A stretch of DNA of 64,000 nt from Candidatus Accumulibacter sp. ACC003 (lineage in GTDB: Bacteria; Pseudomonadota; Gammaproteobacteria; Burkholderiales; Rhodocyclaceae), in the NCBI RefSeq assembly GCF_907163085.1, contig NZ_CAJQTX010000002.1:372001-436000 (forward strand), given 5' to 3'. Each line of letters opens with the position of its first letter. The stretch's first letter is position 1. Positions 52,353 through 60,310 of the stretch are shown in pieces. The notes beneath the pieces are model-generated. The model was not told where the DNA came from. It made no database searches and worked only from the letters and a program-made list of their open reading frames with translations. The position numbers and the translations under genes are program-made.

Positions 52353-52719
52353 TCCTCACCCTCCGAGTCAAATTGCACGCGACTTCCGAGCAAACAACGG
52401 AAGCGCGCCATGCTTAAGCGGCCAGGAGGAGCGTCGGGAACGCTCCTGCGGGCATGCCCGCAAGCCGGCGGCGATCTCAACGCCATGAAGATTCGTCATC
52501 AATATCGACGTTTTCTCGTGCTCGCGCACGACCGATCATTATCAGCCAGCTCGATGCCGAAGTCAAACGGCAGCCTTGTCCACCAGCCCTGACGCATGAC
52601 CTCCCCGAATCGACAGCACTTGCCGGTTACGCCCACTTTCGCCGCCGAGGCGGCCAGATGGGGGTTGGCTAGCGGCAAGGGAGCGCTTGCGGCGCGGGGG
52701 TTTGGTGTTCAGTCAGTGG
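52353..52719. other. Gene-free region between the CNNM pair and the mobile island
   Basis: No gene supportable on either strand. It must hold the promoter of the CNNM pair. A perfect 14-bp palindrome, GCGGGCATGCCCGC, lies at 52448-52461; its role is unknown. Confidence 0.5.
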
Positions 52720-52737
52720 GACAGGAGAGGTCGAGGG
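52720..52737 (+). repeat. Left terminal inverted repeat of the outer element
   Basis: GACAGGAGAGGTCGAGGG, matching the reverse complement of 57197-57214 (GGCAGGATAGGTGGAGGG) at 15 of 18 positions. Confidence 0.55.
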
Positions 52738-52822
52738 AGCTCCGTTACGATCGCCAGGCGAGCCTTTCCCGGCGCGGGGTGCGCCGCGCTTGGGAAGATG
52801 TGTTGGGCAGGCCTGGGCAAGG

Positions 52823-53295
52823 TTATTCGAGTTGCAGCAGGAACGGTTCGGCGAGAAGCAGACGCAGGCGTGCTGGGTCAAGCCAGGGCGCAGCACAGGA
52901 ATTACGGATGAAGGCGATGGCGCCGCGCACACCGAGTTCTTGATAGAGGTTGCGTAACTGCCGGGTGAAACGTGCCAGGGTATTGAACACATGCGCCAGG
53001 CGCATGAGGAGGTGATAGCCTTTCATGGCATTCCAGTCGAGGGCAAAGGCATGCTCGTAGTGGTAGCCCTGATGTTTTTCGACGAGGAAGCCCGCTTCGA
53101 TGCCCCAACGGTGGCGGGCACCGAGGTTGCAGCGCTCATGGACATTGTCTTGTCTGAGCGGTTGGCTGGAGAGCCAGGCGTGGCGCGATGTTTCGGTGAC
53201 TGTCCTGGCCTGTTCATCGATCTTTTCCCAGCTTTCCTCACAGACCACCAGGTTCAGCTTGAGACGCTGACGCCCGTTGGCCGCGAAGGCGTAGT
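52823..53295 (-). pseudogene. 3' part of the outer element's transposase gene, cut off by insertion
   Basis: The frame encodes NGRQRLKLNLVVCEESWEK and then a region with a likely catalytic Glu in RWGIEAGFLVEKHQGYHYEH, ending FLLQLE. It has no start of its own: codons beyond 53295 are read from the inserted element. Joined to the 5' part at 55214, it restores WVNDIDYAFAANGRQRLKL in one frame and a 506-residue transposase. This half alone cannot make an active enzyme. Confidence 0.85.
53286..53295 (+). repeat. Target-site duplication, left copy (AAGGCGTAGT)
   Basis: The 10-bp sequence AAGGCGTAGT stands directly outside the left end of the ISAs1-type element and again directly outside its right end at 55204-55213. 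Ten bases fits the 8-10 bp usual for the ISAs1 family. Confidence 0.85.
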
Positions 53296-53313
53296 CACGG
53301 TAAATTTGTTCTC
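53296..53313 (+). repeat. Left terminal inverted repeat of the ISAs1-type element
   Basis: Matches the reverse complement of the right end at 14 of 18 positions. The transposase stop codon is only ten bases inside it. Confidence 0.8.
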
Positions 53314-53322
53314 GTGCCGGGA

Positions 53323-54045
53323 TCAAGGTGATACGTGGCCTGTAGAATTTTTGGTCATGCGCAGGTAGTCGAAGACCAATCGGATGTTGCGGTTGAGGTG
53401 GCGCATTTTTTCGGAAATGCTGGTTTTGCCGTCGGAGAAGTGGTGCAGGATTCCGACGGCAAAGCGGCGCAGGCGTGACATGTTCTCGGGTCCGTAACCA
53501 GTCCGAATACGGCTACGGTCCTCGTCGTAGTTCCAGTCGATGACGTAGTGACAGCGGTTCTCTATCGACCAATGGCCGCGATTGATGGCGAGGATTTGCT
53601 GTGGGCTGGCCTGTTCTGGAGGGCGACTGGTGATCCCGAGAGCGATTTCGTGCGTCCGCTTGCCGCTCTTCTTGTGCAGCACTTCGCGCTCGATCAAGAA
53701 CACCTGGCCGACATGCGGGAAGTCGAGATAGGCGTTGAGGGCATTGCTGCACCAAATACGCCGAGTCTCGATCCGACCATGGTCAGGTGGCGAAACCGCC
53801 ATGAAGTCTGCCCCCTTCCGATCCTGGAAGAGGAGCGCGATATCGGCTTGCAGTGTTGGCTGATTGCCTTTGACCGTGAAGTGATAGTGCGCCTTGCGCT
53901 CCACCAGGTAGGTCGCCAGCTTGCGCTGTGTCAGTAGCGCGTCGGCGGTGATGTCCTTGCCCTGAATATCGATCGCATCGAGCAGGGGTATGAACATCCC
54001 GATTTCATTGGTCTGCTTGAGCTCGTCCCCGCCATTTACGGGCAA
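53323..54045 (-). CDS. ISAs1-family transposase, C-terminal part (-1 frame)
   Basis: 240 residues that form the C-terminal catalytic half of an ISAs1-family DDE transposase. Blocks are LLDAIDIQGKDITADALLTQ with the second catalytic Asp, YHFTVKGNQPTL, GHWSIENRCHYVIDWNYDED with the catalytic Glu, and FDYLRMTKNSTGH at the end. The nominal start is a TTG with no ribosome site. The part just before it (KKVGTL) continues the upstream frame after a -1 shift on the A7 run. It is probably made only as a fusion with the upstream gene, giving about 595 residues. Confidence 0.8.
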   Translation of the reverse strand: MPVNGGDELKQTNEIGMFIPLLDAIDIQGKDITADALLTQRKLATYLVERKAHYHFTVKGNQPTLQADIALLFQDRKGADFMAVSPPDHGRIETRRIWCSNALNAYLDFPHVGQVFLIEREVLHKKSGKRTHEIALGITSRPPEQASPQQILAINRGHWSIENRCHYVIDWNYDEDRSRIRTGYGPENMSRLRRFAVGILHHFSDGKTSISEKMRHLNRNIRLVFDYLRMTKNSTGHVSP

Positions 54046-55109
54046 GGTGCCGACTTTTTTTGGGTGTGGTAGACGCCGGTCTGATGCCCGACCACACTCA
54101 TGATGTGCGTTTGCTGACCGTGCTCGTCATGGGCATTGCGCATGGTCTTGCCGTCGACCGCCAGACTGGGGTCGTCTTGAGCATAGGCCTTGTTCCACTG
54201 CTGACACGCTTGGTCGAGTGCCGTGGGATCGACGCGGATCAGGACGTCACGAATGATGAACTCGCTGGGTACGCGGTAAACGCCCTTCTCGCGACGACAG
54301 CGGAAACGCTCGCGTGCTTTCGGTGTGAGGTCTTTGGCCCACCCGGCGATGGCTTTGTAGCCCTGCATTCCGCACAACGCCGCCGCCGTGGCGATGGCCA
54401 GCACGGCCGGCAGGGGATGGCGTCTTCCTTGCGCGCGCCGCGGGTCGGCGATGCCGGTAAAGAAATCGGGAAGCGTGCGCATCTGTTCGGCGGTGAGCAT
54501 CATCCTGGGCGCTCCTGTGCGATAGCGGGGGTTGAGTATCGAGCGGGAAAGTTGGCCGCGAGCGTCCGCCTGCAAGGGGCGAACAAAGACAACTTTGGGC
54601 GACGTCGGGTGGGCGCTGTAGCCTTCTCGGGTGCGGCGAAAGCCTTGCGTCAGCCCCAGAGGCGTCCAGTTCGCGGCGCGATAGACGGTCCCCTGGAAGC
54701 GCGAGGGGTCCACAAAGGTCTCCAGCAGTAACAGCGGCTTCCCGAAATGCGCCTGCCAGTCCTCTGCGATCCGTCGCTCGCACAGCGAGAGCACCTTGGA
54801 GCCGAGATTGGGGTAATGCCAATCGGGAAGGATCAGAAAGCGACTATTGTTGGCGACCAGGCCCAAGCGATCGTACTGATGCCGATAGTCCCAGCCGATC
54901 CAGCGGTCACGAACGCCGCATTTCCAGGCCGCCGCAGAGAAACTCAGCAAGGCCGTCCACTTTTCGCCGTAGGTGGCCACGTACCAAAGCGTGTGCCCGA
55001 TCTTCGCCAGGTCGCCCAGGTAGTGATGCTCTGCCATCAACTCCCGATAGCGAGCCTCTTCGCTCTTGCCCACCAAGCGAACACGCAATGCACCAAGAAC
55101 GCTTTCCAT
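54036..55109 (-). CDS. DUF4338 (DruA-like) domain fused to ISAs1 transposase N-terminal part
   Basis: 357 residues. Positions 1-190 are a DUF4338/DruA-type domain (MAEHHYLGDLAKIGHTLWYV, VRDRWIGW, NNSRFLILP, LLLETFVDPSRFQGTVYRAANW). Residues 205-350 are the ISAs1 N-terminal region (LPDFFTGIADPRRAQGRRHPL, YKAIAGWAKDLTPKARERF, first catalytic Asp in LAVDGKTMRNAHDEHG). It ends at a stop just after the slippery A7 tract, before the rest of the transposase. The same DruA-like domain is encoded separately in the neighbouring outer element. An internal ATG (MMLTAEQ, residue 203) could allow a short product without the DUF4338 part. Confidence 0.82.
   Translation of the reverse strand: MESVLGALRVRLVGKSEEARYRELMAEHHYLGDLAKIGHTLWYVATYGEKWTALLSFSAAAWKCGVRDRWIGWDYRHQYDRLGLVANNSRFLILPDWHYPNLGSKVLSLCERRIAEDWQAHFGKPLLLLETFVDPSRFQGTVYRAANWTPLGLTQGFRRTREGYSAHPTSPKVVFVRPLQADARGQLSRSILNPRYRTGAPRMMLTAEQMRTLPDFFTGIADPRRAQGRRHPLPAVLAIATAAALCGMQGYKAIAGWAKDLTPKARERFRCRREKGVYRVPSEFIIRDVLIRVDPTALDQACQQWNKAYAQDDPSLAVDGKTMRNAHDEHGQQTHIMSVVGHQTGVYHTQKKSAPCP
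54054..54060 (-). other. Candidate -1 ribosomal frameshift site A-AAA-AAG
   Basis: On the minus strand the 0-frame reads CAA AAA AAG TCG and ends 15 bases later in TAA. The heptamer A AAA AAG is in the phase required for -1 slippage, as in dnaX. Slippage gives KKVGTLPVNGG and continues directly into the C-terminal transposase frame. A short CCCG...CGGG stem follows about 11 bases later. A simple one-base mutation in the A run is the alternative. Confidence 0.6.
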
Positions 55110-55185
55110 GCGCCATTTATACGGACTTCCGGCGCGAATGTCCAGGGGGAAGAACTAACTGCTTGATTGCCCGTGCGTTGCCTGA

Positions 55186-55203
55186 GAGGACAAATCCACC
55201 CTG
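55186..55203 (-). repeat. Right terminal inverted repeat of the ISAs1-type element
   Basis: Reads CAGGGTGGATTTGTCCTC on the minus strand and pairs with the left end at 14 of 18 positions. Confidence 0.8.
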
Positions 55204-55213
55204 AAGGCGTAGT
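55204..55213 (+). repeat. Target-site duplication, right copy (AAGGCGTAGT)
   Basis: Exact copy of 53286-53295, flanking the element's right end. Deleting one copy and the element restores the outer transposase frame. Confidence 0.85.
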
Positions 55214-56257
55214 CGATGTCGTTGACCCAGCTGAAGTGTTGTCGGCGCCTTCCCCAAGCGCGCTGCACGGCTTGTGGCTTCAGGGCGTGGAGTGCGCGGA
55301 ACTCCTGCCAGACCGTGGACAAATCCTTGTCCTTAAGCACGATCATGAACTGCCAGTGGGCGCGCAAGCAGCGCTGCATCACCGGCCCGTTGGCGTAAAG
55401 GCCGTCGAGCAGGAGCAGGATCGGCAGGCGGGGGAACAGCGTCTTGAGCCGGTCGCTCAAGCGCACAAAGCCGCGCAGCTCGCAGTCCTGCTTTTGTGCT
55501 TCGGTATCGCCCAGCGCGTGTTCGAGGAACTCGCTGAGCAGTGGGACGACCAGGCCGTTGTGGAAAGCCAGGCTGGCCTCGAGGACGTAGACGAAGTACT
55601 GGGTGCGGCGGGTTTCCTCCTTGCCGACGGTGCGCTGGAGGAGTTCCTCCGCCCAGAGGGTGTCGCCGGCGACCTTCTGCGAGCCGTCGATGGCGATGGG
55701 GTAGCAGTGGTTGATCAGATAGCGGCGGAAGCTCTTGCCGCGGATCAGCCGCTTCACCAGATCGACGTGGGCCTGCTCAAGGTGGTCAAGGTCGATGTCG
55801 CGCAGCAGCCGAAACAGGGTGTCGGCGTGTGGTAGGGTCTCGATCTCCGGGAACAGCAGGTGGAGGTTGGCCATGAACTGGGGACGGGATATTTCGCGGT
55901 TGGTCTCGCGCCGAGAGGAGAACTGAAAGACGAACATCAGCAGACCGTAAAGCAGCAGCGCGGTCAGCTTGTGGCGGCGCTTCCTGGGGTCTCTCGGGTC
56001 GGGAATTTGTTCCAGTTGCTCGAGCAAGGCGGGTAGCTCTTTGCGCAGGAGACGCGTCTTTTTGCTCACGGCGTCCTCGCGGGCCTCCCTTTCCTCGCCG
56101 ACGGTCGCGAAGGCTGAGCATCGGTTGGGCAGAGAAGTGGGGGAGTGGAGGACTTGTCCACTCGCGCGCCGTTTCGCGTTCAGTGCCTTTTCCTGCCGTT
56201 TCTTCTCTGAGCGCAGCTCCTTGAGGGCAGCGCGTGTCGGGCGACGGCAGGGTTTGC

Positions 56258-57163
56258 TCATGGCCGGGAGCTCCCAGGGGCGGCACACAGCCGGTCGCGA
56301 CAATCGGCGCTCAGCGGTTTGAGCCACACCTGGCGGGGCGTGCTGCGATACGACTGGCCGGGGCGGGCCAGCCCGCGCCCGCTGGTTGCCCCGAGCAACT
56401 GCCAACCGGCCGCGCGGTAACAGGTGCCGGTATAGTGACGAGGATCGACGAAAGTCTCCAGCAACAGGGGCTCGAAGCCCCAGTGATCGAGCCAGTCCGC
56501 GCGTGCGCGGCGCGCGAGTTGTCCGAGCACATGACTGGCCAGATGCGGCACCCGGACGTGGGGAAAGATCAGGAAGCGGCTGTTGTTCACCACCCGCGCC
56601 AGGTTCTCGCGGCGGGCCTGGGCCGTCCAGCCGATCCAGCGGTCGCGCACGGCGACCGCGCGGGCAGCGCCGGCCAGCAGGACGCTGCCGAGCCGCCGGT
56701 CGCCCGCCGTGATGAAGTAGCGCAGGCGGTAGCCGAAGGCCCCCTGGAAACCCAGTGGGTGCCAGCGCGCCACCAGCGCATCCCACTGCGCCACCAACGC
56801 CGCGTCGCGAACGACTTCCAGGCAGACCGGTGCGAGTGCCGACAGGGCGCAGTGCACGGGAAGCTCCCCGGTGACCGTATCTACGGGTGCCGCGGGCGGC
56901 GCGCAACGGCGTGCTGACGACGGCCTTATCGCCGGCAGTGTCAGCAGCCCGGCCGCCTGCAAACGCTCCAGAAACTCCAGGCAGGCGCTGATCTTCGCCG
57001 TCCCTGTCAGAGTGGTCCACCCCAGGTGCTCGCAGACCGTCGCCGCCAACTCCTTGCGCGCCAATCCCGGCAGCCACGCCACCGTCCCGCACACCTCGGC
57101 GATCTCCGCGGCGCTGAATACGCGACCGCAGTGCACCCACTCCCCTTCGCTCGTTGCAACCAC
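56258..57163 (-). CDS. DUF4338 (DruA-like) protein of the outer element
   Basis: A ~301-residue protein. The N-terminal ~90 residues form a helical domain (VFSAAEIAEVCG, GLARKELAATVCEHLGW, LEFLERLQAAGLL). The DruA-like core follows (VRDRWIGW, NNSRFLIFP, LLLETFVDPRHYTGTCYRAAGW, RSTPRQVWLKPL). The core shares these blocks with the DUF4338 domain of the inner element. The family gives its name to DruA of the Druantia anti-phage system. GTG was chosen because GGAGGTATC precedes it; a TTG further up would start next to the inverted repeat. Its TGA overlaps the transposase ATG. Confidence 0.8.
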   Translation of the reverse strand: MVATSEGEWVHCGRVFSAAEIAEVCGTVAWLPGLARKELAATVCEHLGWTTLTGTAKISACLEFLERLQAAGLLTLPAIRPSSARRCAPPAAPVDTVTGELPVHCALSALAPVCLEVVRDAALVAQWDALVARWHPLGFQGAFGYRLRYFITAGDRRLGSVLLAGAARAVAVRDRWIGWTAQARRENLARVVNNSRFLIFPHVRVPHLASHVLGQLARRARADWLDHWGFEPLLLETFVDPRHYTGTCYRAAGWQLLGATSGRGLARPGQSYRSTPRQVWLKPLSADCRDRLCAAPGSSRP

Positions 57164-57196
57164 CACGATACCTCCGGCTGAAACGTGGACCAATGA

Positions 57197-57214
57197 CCCT
57201 CCACCTATCCTGCC
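57197..57214 (-). repeat. Right terminal inverted repeat of the outer element
   Basis: Reads GGCAGGATAGGTGGAGGG on the minus strand, 15 of 18 matches to the left end at 52720-52737. It lies just upstream of the DUF4338 gene. Confidence 0.55.
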
Positions 57215-57298
57215 AGAAGTCCCCCCGGCTGTCTAGCTCCCTTGTGCGAAACCTTTTTTGCCTGCCCACCGCAACGCCTTGCCAGTACTGGGCTGGCG

Positions 57299-57317
57299 CA
57301 GTCATGCTTCAGCGCTG
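57299..57317 (+). repeat. 19-bp direct repeat, left copy (CAGTCATGCTTCAGCGCTG)
   Basis: Identical to 60292-60310. The left copy stands where recognisable IS3 orfB coding begins; the right copy stands directly at the IS3 right end. Confidence 0.9.
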
Positions 57318-57993: not shown

Positions 57994-60204
57994 TTGAGGC
58001 AATCGTGGCTTCCAGGGTTTCCGGATGGTGCGCAGAAAGTGGGAGAAGGGTTGGCGATTCTGGAGAAGGATGGCCAAGCGATCTACTTTGTTGGGGGAGA
58101 CAATTACTTCTCGCACCCCGTAGGAGACGACGCTGGCCGCAGGTTCGCTCTGACCAGCCTGATGGAGAACGGGCACGTCAAGGCGGTCGAACTGGAAAGG
58201 CCACCGCTGTGCATCCCGCACCGCACGCTGATGAACTGGGTGGGACAAAGCCGCAAAGCCGGGCCATCGTCTTTCTTTCGACCGGCGGCGGCGAGCCGGC
58301 CGCGGATCATGACGCCGGACAAGAGTGCCGAATGCGCGCGGCTGTTGAGCGAGGGAAAGCGTCCTGCCGAAGTGGCACGGCAGGTGGGCGTCCAGGAGTC
58401 GACGCTGCGCAAGGCGATCCGGCGCCAGGGCGTGCCGCAGTTGGCCGCCTTGCCGCAAGAGGCAGGGGAGTTGGAAGCGGCGAGCACCAAGAGTGAGCGC
58501 AGCCGGGCGGATGCGGAAGCCGCCGCGGGGATGGGCACCGCCTGCACGCGCGCCGACGAGCGGATCCAAACGGCGCTGGGATTGGCGACCGGTGCGACGA
58601 CGCGCTTCGAAGCGAGCCACGATGTGGCGATGGGGGGGCTGTTGGCCGGCTTGCCGGCCTTGTGCGCGAACGGGCTACTGACCGGCCTGGATCGCCATCT
58701 CAAGCTGCCCCGGGGATTCTACAGCGCCTTGCACATCCTTCTCGTCCTCGGCTTCATGGCCCTGGGGCGAATCAAGCGGCCGGAACATCTGCGACAAACC
58801 TCGCCCGGAGAACTCGGCAAAGTCATCGGCCTGGACCGGGTACCGGAAGTCCGCACCCTGCGGGAAAAGGTCCATCTGCTGGCCAAGACGGGTGACCCGG
58901 CAGCCTGGATGCGGGATCTCGCGAAGCTCTGGATGGAAAGCGAGCCAGAAGAAGCGGGTTACCTGTATGTCGATGGTCATGTTCGGGTGTATCACGGCGA
59001 GCAGGCCAGGCTGTCGAAGCGCTACGTCTCGCGCGAACGCCTGTGCCTGCGGGGCACCACCGACTACTGGGTTAACGATGCCCTGGGTCGCCCGTTCTTT
59101 GTGGTTTCGCAGCCGCTCAATGACGGACTCGCCGAGACCCTGCTCAAGGACATCGTCCCCCAACTGCTGGAGATTGTCCCGGGACAGCCGACGCCGGCCG
59201 AACTGGACGCCGACCCGACCCTGCACCGGTTTGTCATGGTCTTCGATCGGGAAGGGGCCACCCAGAGTCTCCTCGGCAGACTCTGGAAACAGCGCATCGG
59301 CGCACTGACCTACCGCAAGAACGTCAAGGACCTCTGGTCCGAAGAGGTGTTTCAGGAACAGGAAGTCCATCTGCCGGCAGGCGGCAGCACCGGGATGAAA
59401 CTCGCCATGCGCGAAACCCGACTCGGCACAGGCGATGGCAGCCTGGCCGTGAGCGAAGTTCGTCGGCTGACCCAGACGGGACATCAAACAGCCGTGATCA
59501 CGACCGCCCGGCAACTCGGAAACACCACCATCGCTGGGCGGATGTTCGCCCGTTGGTGCCAGGAAAACTACTTCGCGTACATGATGGAACATTATGATAT
59601 TGATGGGCTTATCGAGTACGGAGACGAATCTCTTCCCGGCACTCACCAGGTCGTTAACCCCCGCTGGCGGGAACTCGACAAGGCCGTCAGGCAAACCCGC
59701 CAGAGCGAAAGAAAACTGCAGGCCGCAATCGCCAGGACGGCCTTGAACGACGGCGGCGAAATCCAGAAAAACGCCGAGTCTGTCGAAGCACTGCAGGCCG
59801 TTCAGGAGGAGCTCAAGCGACTTTGCGCGGCGCGCAAGGCAAGCCCCCGAAAGATGACGATCGACAGTCTGCCCGAGGCCGAGCGACCGACCCAACTGCC
59901 GCCGCTGAACAAGATGCTCTGCGATACCGTGAAAATGGTCGCCTACCGGGCCGAGACCGCCATGGTGGCGCTATTGCGCCGCCACTTGAAGAAGGAGGAC
60001 GACGCACGTGCGCTCATTCGCGAATTGTTCGTTTCTTCCGCTGACATCGAACCGAACGCGCTAGCCAACACCCTGACCATCAAAATTCACCGGATGGCCA
60101 GCCCAGCTCATGATCGCGCTATCGCCGCGCTCCTCGAGGAACTCACCCTGCAAGATTTTCCGCATCCGGAAACCGGGGCAAGAATGACCTTCACTCTTGT
60201 CTGA
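57994..60204 (+). CDS. Large transposase of the 2376-bp element
   Basis: A 736-residue protein. A helix-turn-helix-like region stands near residues 120-145 (RPAEVARQVGVQESTLRKAIRRQG). A DDE-type core follows, with probable catalytic Asp in YLYVDGHVRVYHGEQARLS (about 330) and in FVMVFDREGATQSLLGRLW. The C-terminal ~150 residues are helical. The third acidic residue is not certain. Translation starts at TTG behind an excellent AAGGAGGAGCAG site at seven bases, so TTG is the likely true start. It is the only gene inside the inverted repeats. Confidence 0.82.
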   Translation: MRQSWLPGFPDGAQKVGEGLAILEKDGQAIYFVGGDNYFSHPVGDDAGRRFALTSLMENGHVKAVELERPPLCIPHRTLMNWVGQSRKAGPSSFFRPAAASRPRIMTPDKSAECARLLSEGKRPAEVARQVGVQESTLRKAIRRQGVPQLAALPQEAGELEAASTKSERSRADAEAAAGMGTACTRADERIQTALGLATGATTRFEASHDVAMGGLLAGLPALCANGLLTGLDRHLKLPRGFYSALHILLVLGFMALGRIKRPEHLRQTSPGELGKVIGLDRVPEVRTLREKVHLLAKTGDPAAWMRDLAKLWMESEPEEAGYLYVDGHVRVYHGEQARLSKRYVSRERLCLRGTTDYWVNDALGRPFFVVSQPLNDGLAETLLKDIVPQLLEIVPGQPTPAELDADPTLHRFVMVFDREGATQSLLGRLWKQRIGALTYRKNVKDLWSEEVFQEQEVHLPAGGSTGMKLAMRETRLGTGDGSLAVSEVRRLTQTGHQTAVITTARQLGNTTIAGRMFARWCQENYFAYMMEHYDIDGLIEYGDESLPGTHQVVNPRWRELDKAVRQTRQSERKLQAAIARTALNDGGEIQKNAESVEALQAVQEELKRLCAARKASPRKMTIDSLPEAERPTQLPPLNKMLCDTVKMVAYRAETAMVALLRRHLKKEDDARALIRELFVSSADIEPNALANTLTIKIHRMASPAHDRAIAALLEELTLQDFPHPETGARMTFTLV

Positions 60205-60291: not shown

Positions 60292-60310
60292 CAGTCATGC
60301 TTCAGCGCTG
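60292..60310 (+). repeat. 19-bp direct repeat, right copy
   Basis: Identical to 57299-57317. It begins with the terminal CA of the IS3 remnant, so 17 bases lie outside the element. Confidence 0.9.

Follow-up and report, generated by a model that had tools for sequence, protein, structure and literature searches.

Insertion sequences of the ISAs1 family have a single transposase open reading frame (ORF) and produce target duplications of 8-10 bp. Here we describe a relative of this family, element C, which occupies 1908 bp of a 64,000-nucleotide stretch of the Candidatus Accumulibacter sp. ACC003 genome (contig NZ_CAJQTX010000002.1, positions 372,001 to 436,000; this whole stretch is the window, within which positions are counted below) and which carries a DruA-type domain (PF14236, DUF4338) ahead of a transposase divided between two reading frames. 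It shares with the ISAs1 family the transposase type (NF033564), the DDE_Tnp_1_assoc domain, inverted repeats and a 10-bp duplication, but has an extra N-terminal GNAT domain, two frames and a place in a clade separate from 28 plain ISAs1 elements; ISAs1 itself is 1223 bp long, as given in an extract of PMC2556355, against 1.9 kb for element C. The IS1 and IS3 families, to which an extract of PMC3281130 confined the reported frameshifted transposase products as of 2012, likewise have two overlapping ORFs joined by frameshifting, which is putative in element C, but they belong to other transposase families, and the upstream product of element C differs in carrying a GNAT domain.

According to extracts of three further papers, DUF4338 is a GNAT domain (PMC10853773), Mom-family GNATs acylate N6 of adenine (PMC7824862), and Mom protects Mu DNA from restriction (PMC6483171). 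Mom of phage Mu is the top structural match of two models of the DruA-type domain and agrees with it in motif positions, whereas the sequence stays below the Pfam cut-off; Mom is a phage late gene, whereas domains of the element C type are joined to transposases or lie next to them. The DruA of Druantia type I belongs to the same PF14236 family and has positions R67, D68, P95, Y143, G152 and G156 in common with the domain of element C, but it falls in a separate clade, is without H29, R90, S104 and E130, and lies near a DEAD/DEAH helicase gene. We are inclined to read the domain as a transposition-linked, Mom-like acyltransferase within an ISAs1-group insertion sequence, and hold this reading with slightly more belief than doubt. 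The parts of element C are of known kinds; in the open literature, as far as its text was accessible, we found neither their combination, nor a conserved shift in an ISAs1 subgroup, nor the recurrence of the domain across transposase families, a prior description in ISfinder or subscription papers being possible. Nor did any of the open papers searched pair ISAs1 with DruA, or DruA with transposase as whole words.

Element C and its copies

The features of element C are as follows.

53296..55203, minus strand: whole DruA-ISAs1 insertion sequence (element C), 1908 bp, 23 full-length genome copies with identical ends
55186..55203, minus strand: 5' terminal inverted repeat, CAGGGTGGATTTGTCCTC
53296..53313, plus strand: 3' terminal inverted repeat, CACGGTAAATTTGTTCTC
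55204..55213: target duplication, 10 bp, ACTACGCCTT on the minus strand
53286..53295: target duplication, second copy
54036..55109, minus strand: ORF1, 357 aa, with the DruA-type GNAT domain, DDE_Tnp_1_assoc and the first part of the ISAs1 transposase
54639..55088, minus strand: PF14236 match, ORF1 residues 8-157, predicted GNAT fold closest to phage Mu Mom
54195..54467, minus strand: DDE_Tnp_1_assoc, ORF1 residues 215-305
53323..54045, minus strand: ORF2, 240 aa counted from TTG, remainder of the ISAs1 DDE transposase, in the -1 frame relative to ORF1
54054..54060, minus strand: slippery heptamer A_AAA_AAG, after which ORF2 continues in -1

A reading of this DNA made from the letters alone, hereafter the sequence-only reading, had placed the DUF4338 region and the transposase between the same terminal repeats, with a target duplication, and this is borne out by ends at 55203 and 53296, the 10-bp repeat, and 23 full-length copies, together with pieces, returned by a DNA search of the genome itself. 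The target duplication is exact over 10 bp at 21 of these copies and over 9 bp at one, and at the last (locus L010) the flanking 10-mers differ by one base. Element C thus has the inverted repeats and duplication of the ISAs1 family, with exact 9-10 bp repeats at 22 of 23 copies. Two copies, L009 and L019, have identical flanks and probably represent a duplicated region rather than two separate insertions. That element C is a mobile, multicopy unit with the domain inside its ends seems hardly open to doubt from its sequence. The claim that the domain moves with the element as part of its transposition protein also stood, since it lies inside the terminal repeats and relatives with the same gene order are widespread. 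At G000:C5:159399-163224, two copies (L014 and L020) lie in tandem with exactly one 10-bp target repeat between them. A search of Rfam over 53200-55300 gave no match up to E 0.1.

As the sequence-only reading had expected of the N-terminal region, ORF1 matches PF14236 (DUF4338/DruA) at 88.5 bits (cut-off 27), and downstream in the same ORF it matches DDE_Tnp_1_assoc at 72.1 bits (cut-off 32.3). ORF2 reaches 137.9 bits against the NCBIfam ISAs1 transposase NF033564 (cut-off 70), to which the ISAs1 part of ORF1 alone scores 50.4 bits, below the cut-off. The description of domain and transposase as fused therefore holds for ORF1 and fails for the whole transposase, whose remainder lies in the -1 frame, with no single-frame copy among the 23.

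A conserved split between two frames

The coding strand has CAA AAA AAG at 54054-54060; ORF1 stops a few codons later, and ORF2 continues in -1. The 23 full-length copies, on which the check for single-frame forms was made, have A7G in 22 cases and A6 in one, and all 23 are in two frames, unlike the single transposase ORF of the ISAs1 family. Because an element that is split in every full copy nevertheless reached 23 copies, its halves are probably joined by the cell; alternatively, the transposase may be provided by some other element of the genome, whose own ISAs1 matches were scored in part only.

The same arrangement recurs in other genomes. When named genomes were scanned, 505 of the 550 candidate stretches proved to code for a relative, and 80 loci are listed; the search patterns lie in the DruA domain, so that the scan is blind to DruA-less relatives, and several listed loci share one genome (for example L142/L143 and L153/L193). 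Eight of the 80 do not reach the slip site, and among the 72 that do, 58 have A7G in phase with ORF2 in -1, while L165, L185 and L195 have A_AAA_AAG in a different codon or run context, again with ORF2 in -1, giving 61 of 72 in total. Among the 61 loci scored A7G, 53 have a zero-frame stop within 8 codons when counting begins at the codon in which the run starts. Elsewhere in ORF1 of the 58 A7G loci, lysine is encoded 414 times by AAA versus 392 by AAG, and glutamine 503 times by CAA versus 518 by CAG; this near-even use argues that AAA AAG at the site in 58 of 72 loci is not due to codon bias, relatedness being uncorrected. In four of seven comparisons dS stays below 2.5 in both parts, and there the ratio of nonsynonymous to synonymous substitution rates (dN/dS) lies at 0.11-0.15 in ORF1 and 0.06-0.17 in ORF2; the other three comparisons are saturated. 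Judged by these comparisons, the split arrangement is conserved across phyla under purifying selection.

We consider programmed -1 ribosomal frameshifting very likely to be the route to the full transposase, as the putative slip site suggests. Several observations weigh on the other side. Eleven of the 72 relatives lack the heptamer with ORF2 in -1: the heptamer is present and ORF2 was not found at L149, L150 and L141; the slip site has A6 at L154, L194 and L201 and no A run at L177, L178 and L182; the run is out of phase at L162; and L147 is in a single frame, with A8. A single frame at the site also occurs in L077, which meets a stop further on, and L263, an early branch, has the domain but lacks the shift. 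No RNA structure was found downstream of the slip site (z 0.73 for the window sequence, mean z -0.34 over the relatives), and a Shine-Dalgarno-like upstream stimulator occurs in none of the 58 A7G loci. The existence of a run of seven A, together with this lack of a translational stimulator, could also suit transcriptional slippage on the run, but the run is not lengthened in the family, being exactly A7G in 58 of 72 relatives, A_AAA_AAG persists in L165 and L185 although the run there is just six A long, and slippage usually occurs on longer runs; we regard it as quite improbable. Decay or sequencing error, rather than recoding, might be suspected because homopolymers are prone to error and A6 is seen in one of the 23 full copies. 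It is hard to reconcile with the heptamer and -1 frame in 22 of 23 copies and 61 of 72 relatives, with purifying selection on ORF2, and with the lack of any single-frame form among the full-length copies, and it retains almost no probability, being already refuted as far as sequence can do so.

Fold of the DruA-type domain

A model of ORF1 (mean predicted local distance difference test score, pLDDT, 81) has phage Mu Mom (8bv8) as its top PDB match in Foldseek, at E 8.4e-8, and the model of a DruA-type protein linked to an IS66 transposase (pLDDT 86), built from a different alignment, again returns Mom first, at E 1.5e-6. The structure prediction that the sequence-only reading had proposed for the fusion thus yields, for ORF1, a predicted GNAT fold that is closest to Mom. 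The HY, NxxS, D, Y and N positions of Mom, taken from the Mu record, align with H29-Y30, N101-S104, D134, Y143 and N147, and H29 and Y143 are conserved in all 66 aligned proteins, D134 in 64 and S104 in 63. S104 pairs with Ser 114 in the Mu record of 231 aa and corresponds to Mom S124, the residue mutated in the 'inactive mutant' of 8bv8, only if a numbering shift of +10 is assumed.

The domain is also set apart from Druantia. We compared 31 proteins of the transposon clade with six on the Druantia side (three from loci with a DEAD/DEAH helicase gene, read at three plasmids, plus L205, L206 and L226); membership of the transposon clade is by sequence, no partner transposase having been seen for at least L223 and L082, and the tree label 'IS66like' for L223 comes from 47% identity to the IS66-linked protein, not from its neighbours. 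H29, R90, S104 and E130 are all kept in 31 of 31 transposon-clade domains versus 0 of 6 on the Druantia side, and a tree of the 37 domains has a 100/100 branch between the two types, with long end branches for L206 and L226. Druantia-type proteins span about 2-297 of the PF14236 profile versus about 15-232 for the transposon type, and none of the 83 PF14236 matches in the genome spans the full profile. PADLOC matched neither ORF of element C, and the DruE helicase operon context is absent from the element, whose 1908 bp hold two ORFs only. To judge from these differences, the domain of element C is not the DruA of Druantia.

Proposed mechanism and alternative roles

Under the Mom-like reading, the ribosome (less likely RNA polymerase) would slip back one base at the heptamer, yielding much ORF1 protein, with the GNAT domain and the N-terminal part of the transposase, and little full-length GNAT-transposase, whose scarcity would limit transposition. 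The GNAT domain would be an acyl-CoA-dependent enzyme acting in cis in the transposition complex, an activity that we consider somewhat more probable than not. Since the nearest solved fold is a DNA-base modifier and the domain's partner is a DNA-binding transposase, the likeliest substrate would be DNA, whether of the element ends, the donor or the target; this step is the weakest of the mechanism, and we propose it as possible though doubtful. The benefit would probably be that element DNA is marked or shielded from host nucleases, or that the insertion site is biased. In a wider proposal, speculative and rather unlikely, the Mom-like acyltransferase would be a shared module, joined separately by unrelated DDE transposases (ISAs1, IS66, IS4/Tn5, ISKra4 and an unclassified type) to mark element or target DNA chemically within the transposition complex and shield it against host nucleases, after which the ISAs1 branch would have added the frameshift and with it an excess of free modifier plus DNA-binding half. 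If true, these ideas would give the simplest mobile elements an enzymatic accessory function, connect insertion sequences with a phage DNA-modification strategy, and explain the scatter of a defence-named domain through genomes, PF14236 being more often of the transposon type (27 of 38 sampled regions, below). They also describe an ISAs1 subgroup with apparently conserved frameshifting that is open to ordinary reporter tests.

Several results count against a Mom-like, transposition-linked role. The Mom family PF25680 scores 13.7 bits for ORF1 and 18.2 for the IS66-linked protein (cut-off 27.1), hhalign against the single Mom sequence gives 8% probability, and a PDB sequence search listed no GNAT. 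Ordinary ISAs1 elements show no DruA domain in their fetched flanks, and L223, a domain of the transposon clade, is without an annotated IS66- or ISAs1-type transposase beside it. Ordinary GNATs score not far behind Mom in Foldseek, so that acylation of a protein or small molecule is possible. In particular, the domain might acetylate the transposase or a host factor (a DNA-architectural protein or RNA polymerase) and so tune transposition: Foldseek also returns RimI, RimL, Naa60 and other protein acetyltransferases, and an extract of PMC7824862 reports a phage GNAT that acetylates RNA polymerase. This account is unlikely in view of Mom as the top match for both models and the HY/S/D/Y/N motif order as in Mom. 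We give the same low standing to the view that the GNAT-fold domain is no longer an enzyme and serves as a DNA- or protein-binding module for end recognition or target choice, for which its place joined to or beside transposases of several families speaks, as does the additional N-terminal, winged-helix-looking domain of the IS66-linked version; retention of the Mom motif positions H29, S104, D134 and Y143 in 63-66 of 66 proteins goes beyond the need of a mere binding surface. The view of the sequence-only reading, that the domain is shared with or derived from Druantia DruA, possibly with a role in defence, is very improbable. The two groups belong to one Pfam family above its cut-off, their profiles match significantly (probability 97.4%, E 1.3e-11), and the DruA-type ORF of a second element in the window, of class D below, has weak PADLOC DruA matches (E 2.1e-4 and 0.032), but against this stand the 100/100 split with its long branch, the differing residue signatures, the lack of a PADLOC match for element C, and the partial profile span of all 83 genome matches, unlike that of the Druantia type. 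Kinship beyond the shared family is not supported, and no direction of descent was shown for the suggestion that the defence family derives from transposon accessory proteins.

Relatives and descent of element C

The survey for the same fusion that the sequence-only reading had proposed found relatives with the same gene order across many phyla. Hosts of the listed relatives include Pseudomonadota, Desulfuromonadales and other desulfo-bacteria, Acidobacteria, Nitrospira, Verrucomicrobiota, Chlorobiaceae, Aquificales and a Methanococcoides bin, among others. Both coding ends are present in 51 of the listed loci. In 40 of these the top-scoring pair of inverted repeats encloses 1.84-1.99 kb, such pairs having been picked by score without a chance control and some being poor, and 17 of the 51 have an exact 10-bp duplication.

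An ORF2 search in 398 genomes of the phylum returned close relatives at about 43% identity and up, versus about 26-36% for ordinary ISAs1 elements, which are in one frame where both parts were matched. In an ORF2 tree of 61 sequences, from which three short ones had been dropped, a 100/99 branch divides 28 plain ISAs1 elements from all 31 DruA-linked rows together with L304 and L275, and by this tree the DruA-linked ISAs1 transposases are the sister group of plain ISAs1. L263, which has the domain in one frame, branches first on the DruA-linked side, and the single-frame L077 and L147 are nested. In the simplest reading of the tree, the domain would have come first and the frameshift later, the shift being lost at least twice.

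Related intact copies whose ends exclude the domain were also looked for, as the sequence-only reading had suggested, and L304 was the one close DruA-less copy found. We rejected it as an ancestral DruA-less form and regard it as an internal-deletion derivative, since the start of the DruA region is kept, the copy is single and it has no target duplication. L275 and the partial pieces L277, L278 and L280 have no DruA in their fetched flanks, but lie near contig ends or hold part of ORF2 only.

DruA-type domains beside other transposases

The 83 PF14236 matches of the genome comprise 32 of class A, 4 of class B, 25 of class C (element C), 21 of class D and one split remnant, the classes being assigned from open-frame lengths and the regions read rather than from a reading of each match. 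Class A is an IS66 element of 2716 bp that encodes TnpC and a 286-aa DruA-type ORF; its ends, which were read at four copies, are GTAAG, and its duplications are of 8 bp. Class B is an IS4/Tn5-type transposase with an N-terminal DruA-type domain. Class D measures 2816 bp and has duplications of 9 bp, its ends having been read at six copies, and its DDE_Tnp_1_assoc transposase reaches no NCBIfam cut-off. At L051:2653-5368 and about 30 more places, the DruA-type ORF of class A overlaps the end of the TnpC frame, and the ORF listing of the L051-type element makes no TnpA or TnpB evident between its ends. The IS66-linked version has an extra N-terminal helical domain (model helices 12-24, 30-40 and 52-64), found in most of 17 aligned proteins, that in the model looks like a winged helix. 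At L060:1815-4630, of class D, the DruA and transposase ORFs are in different frames and seem to overlap at the DruA stop, which suggests that their translation may be coupled.

Outside this genome the domain is uncommon: in even draws that both included it, the genomes with PF14236 above cut-off number 15 of 299 from the phylum and 16 of 369 from the class. From these draws, 18 of 19 and 20 of 29 foreign places, respectively, were fetched, some genomes giving several regions; the unfetched place of the phylum draw, the short locus L109, carries the ISAs1 fusion. We read 27 of the 38 regions as holding transposon-type domains, and the other 11 are Druantia-type or partial matches. Sixteen of the 27 have the domain joined to a transposase or immediately next to one (ISAs1, IS66, IS4, ISKra4, or class D-like at 24% identity), 4 are doubtful (L212, L213, L256 and L258), and 7 are fragments with no transposase found (L210, L218-L221, L266 and L273). 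The domain type therefore recurs with five transposase types: ISAs1, IS66, IS4/Tn5, ISKra4 and the unclassified type of class D. At L206:7697-12742, a Druantia-type DruA lies directly beside TniQ and a Mu-type transposase gene, which suggests that it is carried by a Tn7/Tn5053-like transposon. A 1297-aa protein at L214:3304-7194, which matches PF14236 over two stretches and an AAA ATPase weakly, is possibly a DndF-like fusion as in an extract of PMC10853773.

A second DruA-carrying element in the window

Element C lies within another insertion sequence of the window.

52584..57317, minus strand: element D, second DruA-carrying insertion sequence, 2816 bp when whole, interrupted by element C
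56258..57193, minus strand: DruA-type ORF of element D, 311 aa, PF14236 at 89.7 bits

Element D is interrupted at two points, once by element C and once, close to the 5' end, by about 3 kb. Its first 19 bases occur twice, at 57317 and 60310 (second copy 60292-60310), and its outer ends are flanked by the 9-bp duplication GTGGACAAG. Inside the stretch that splits it near the 5' end, a Transposase_29 protein (PF21804, 508.6 bits) is encoded at 57994-60204.

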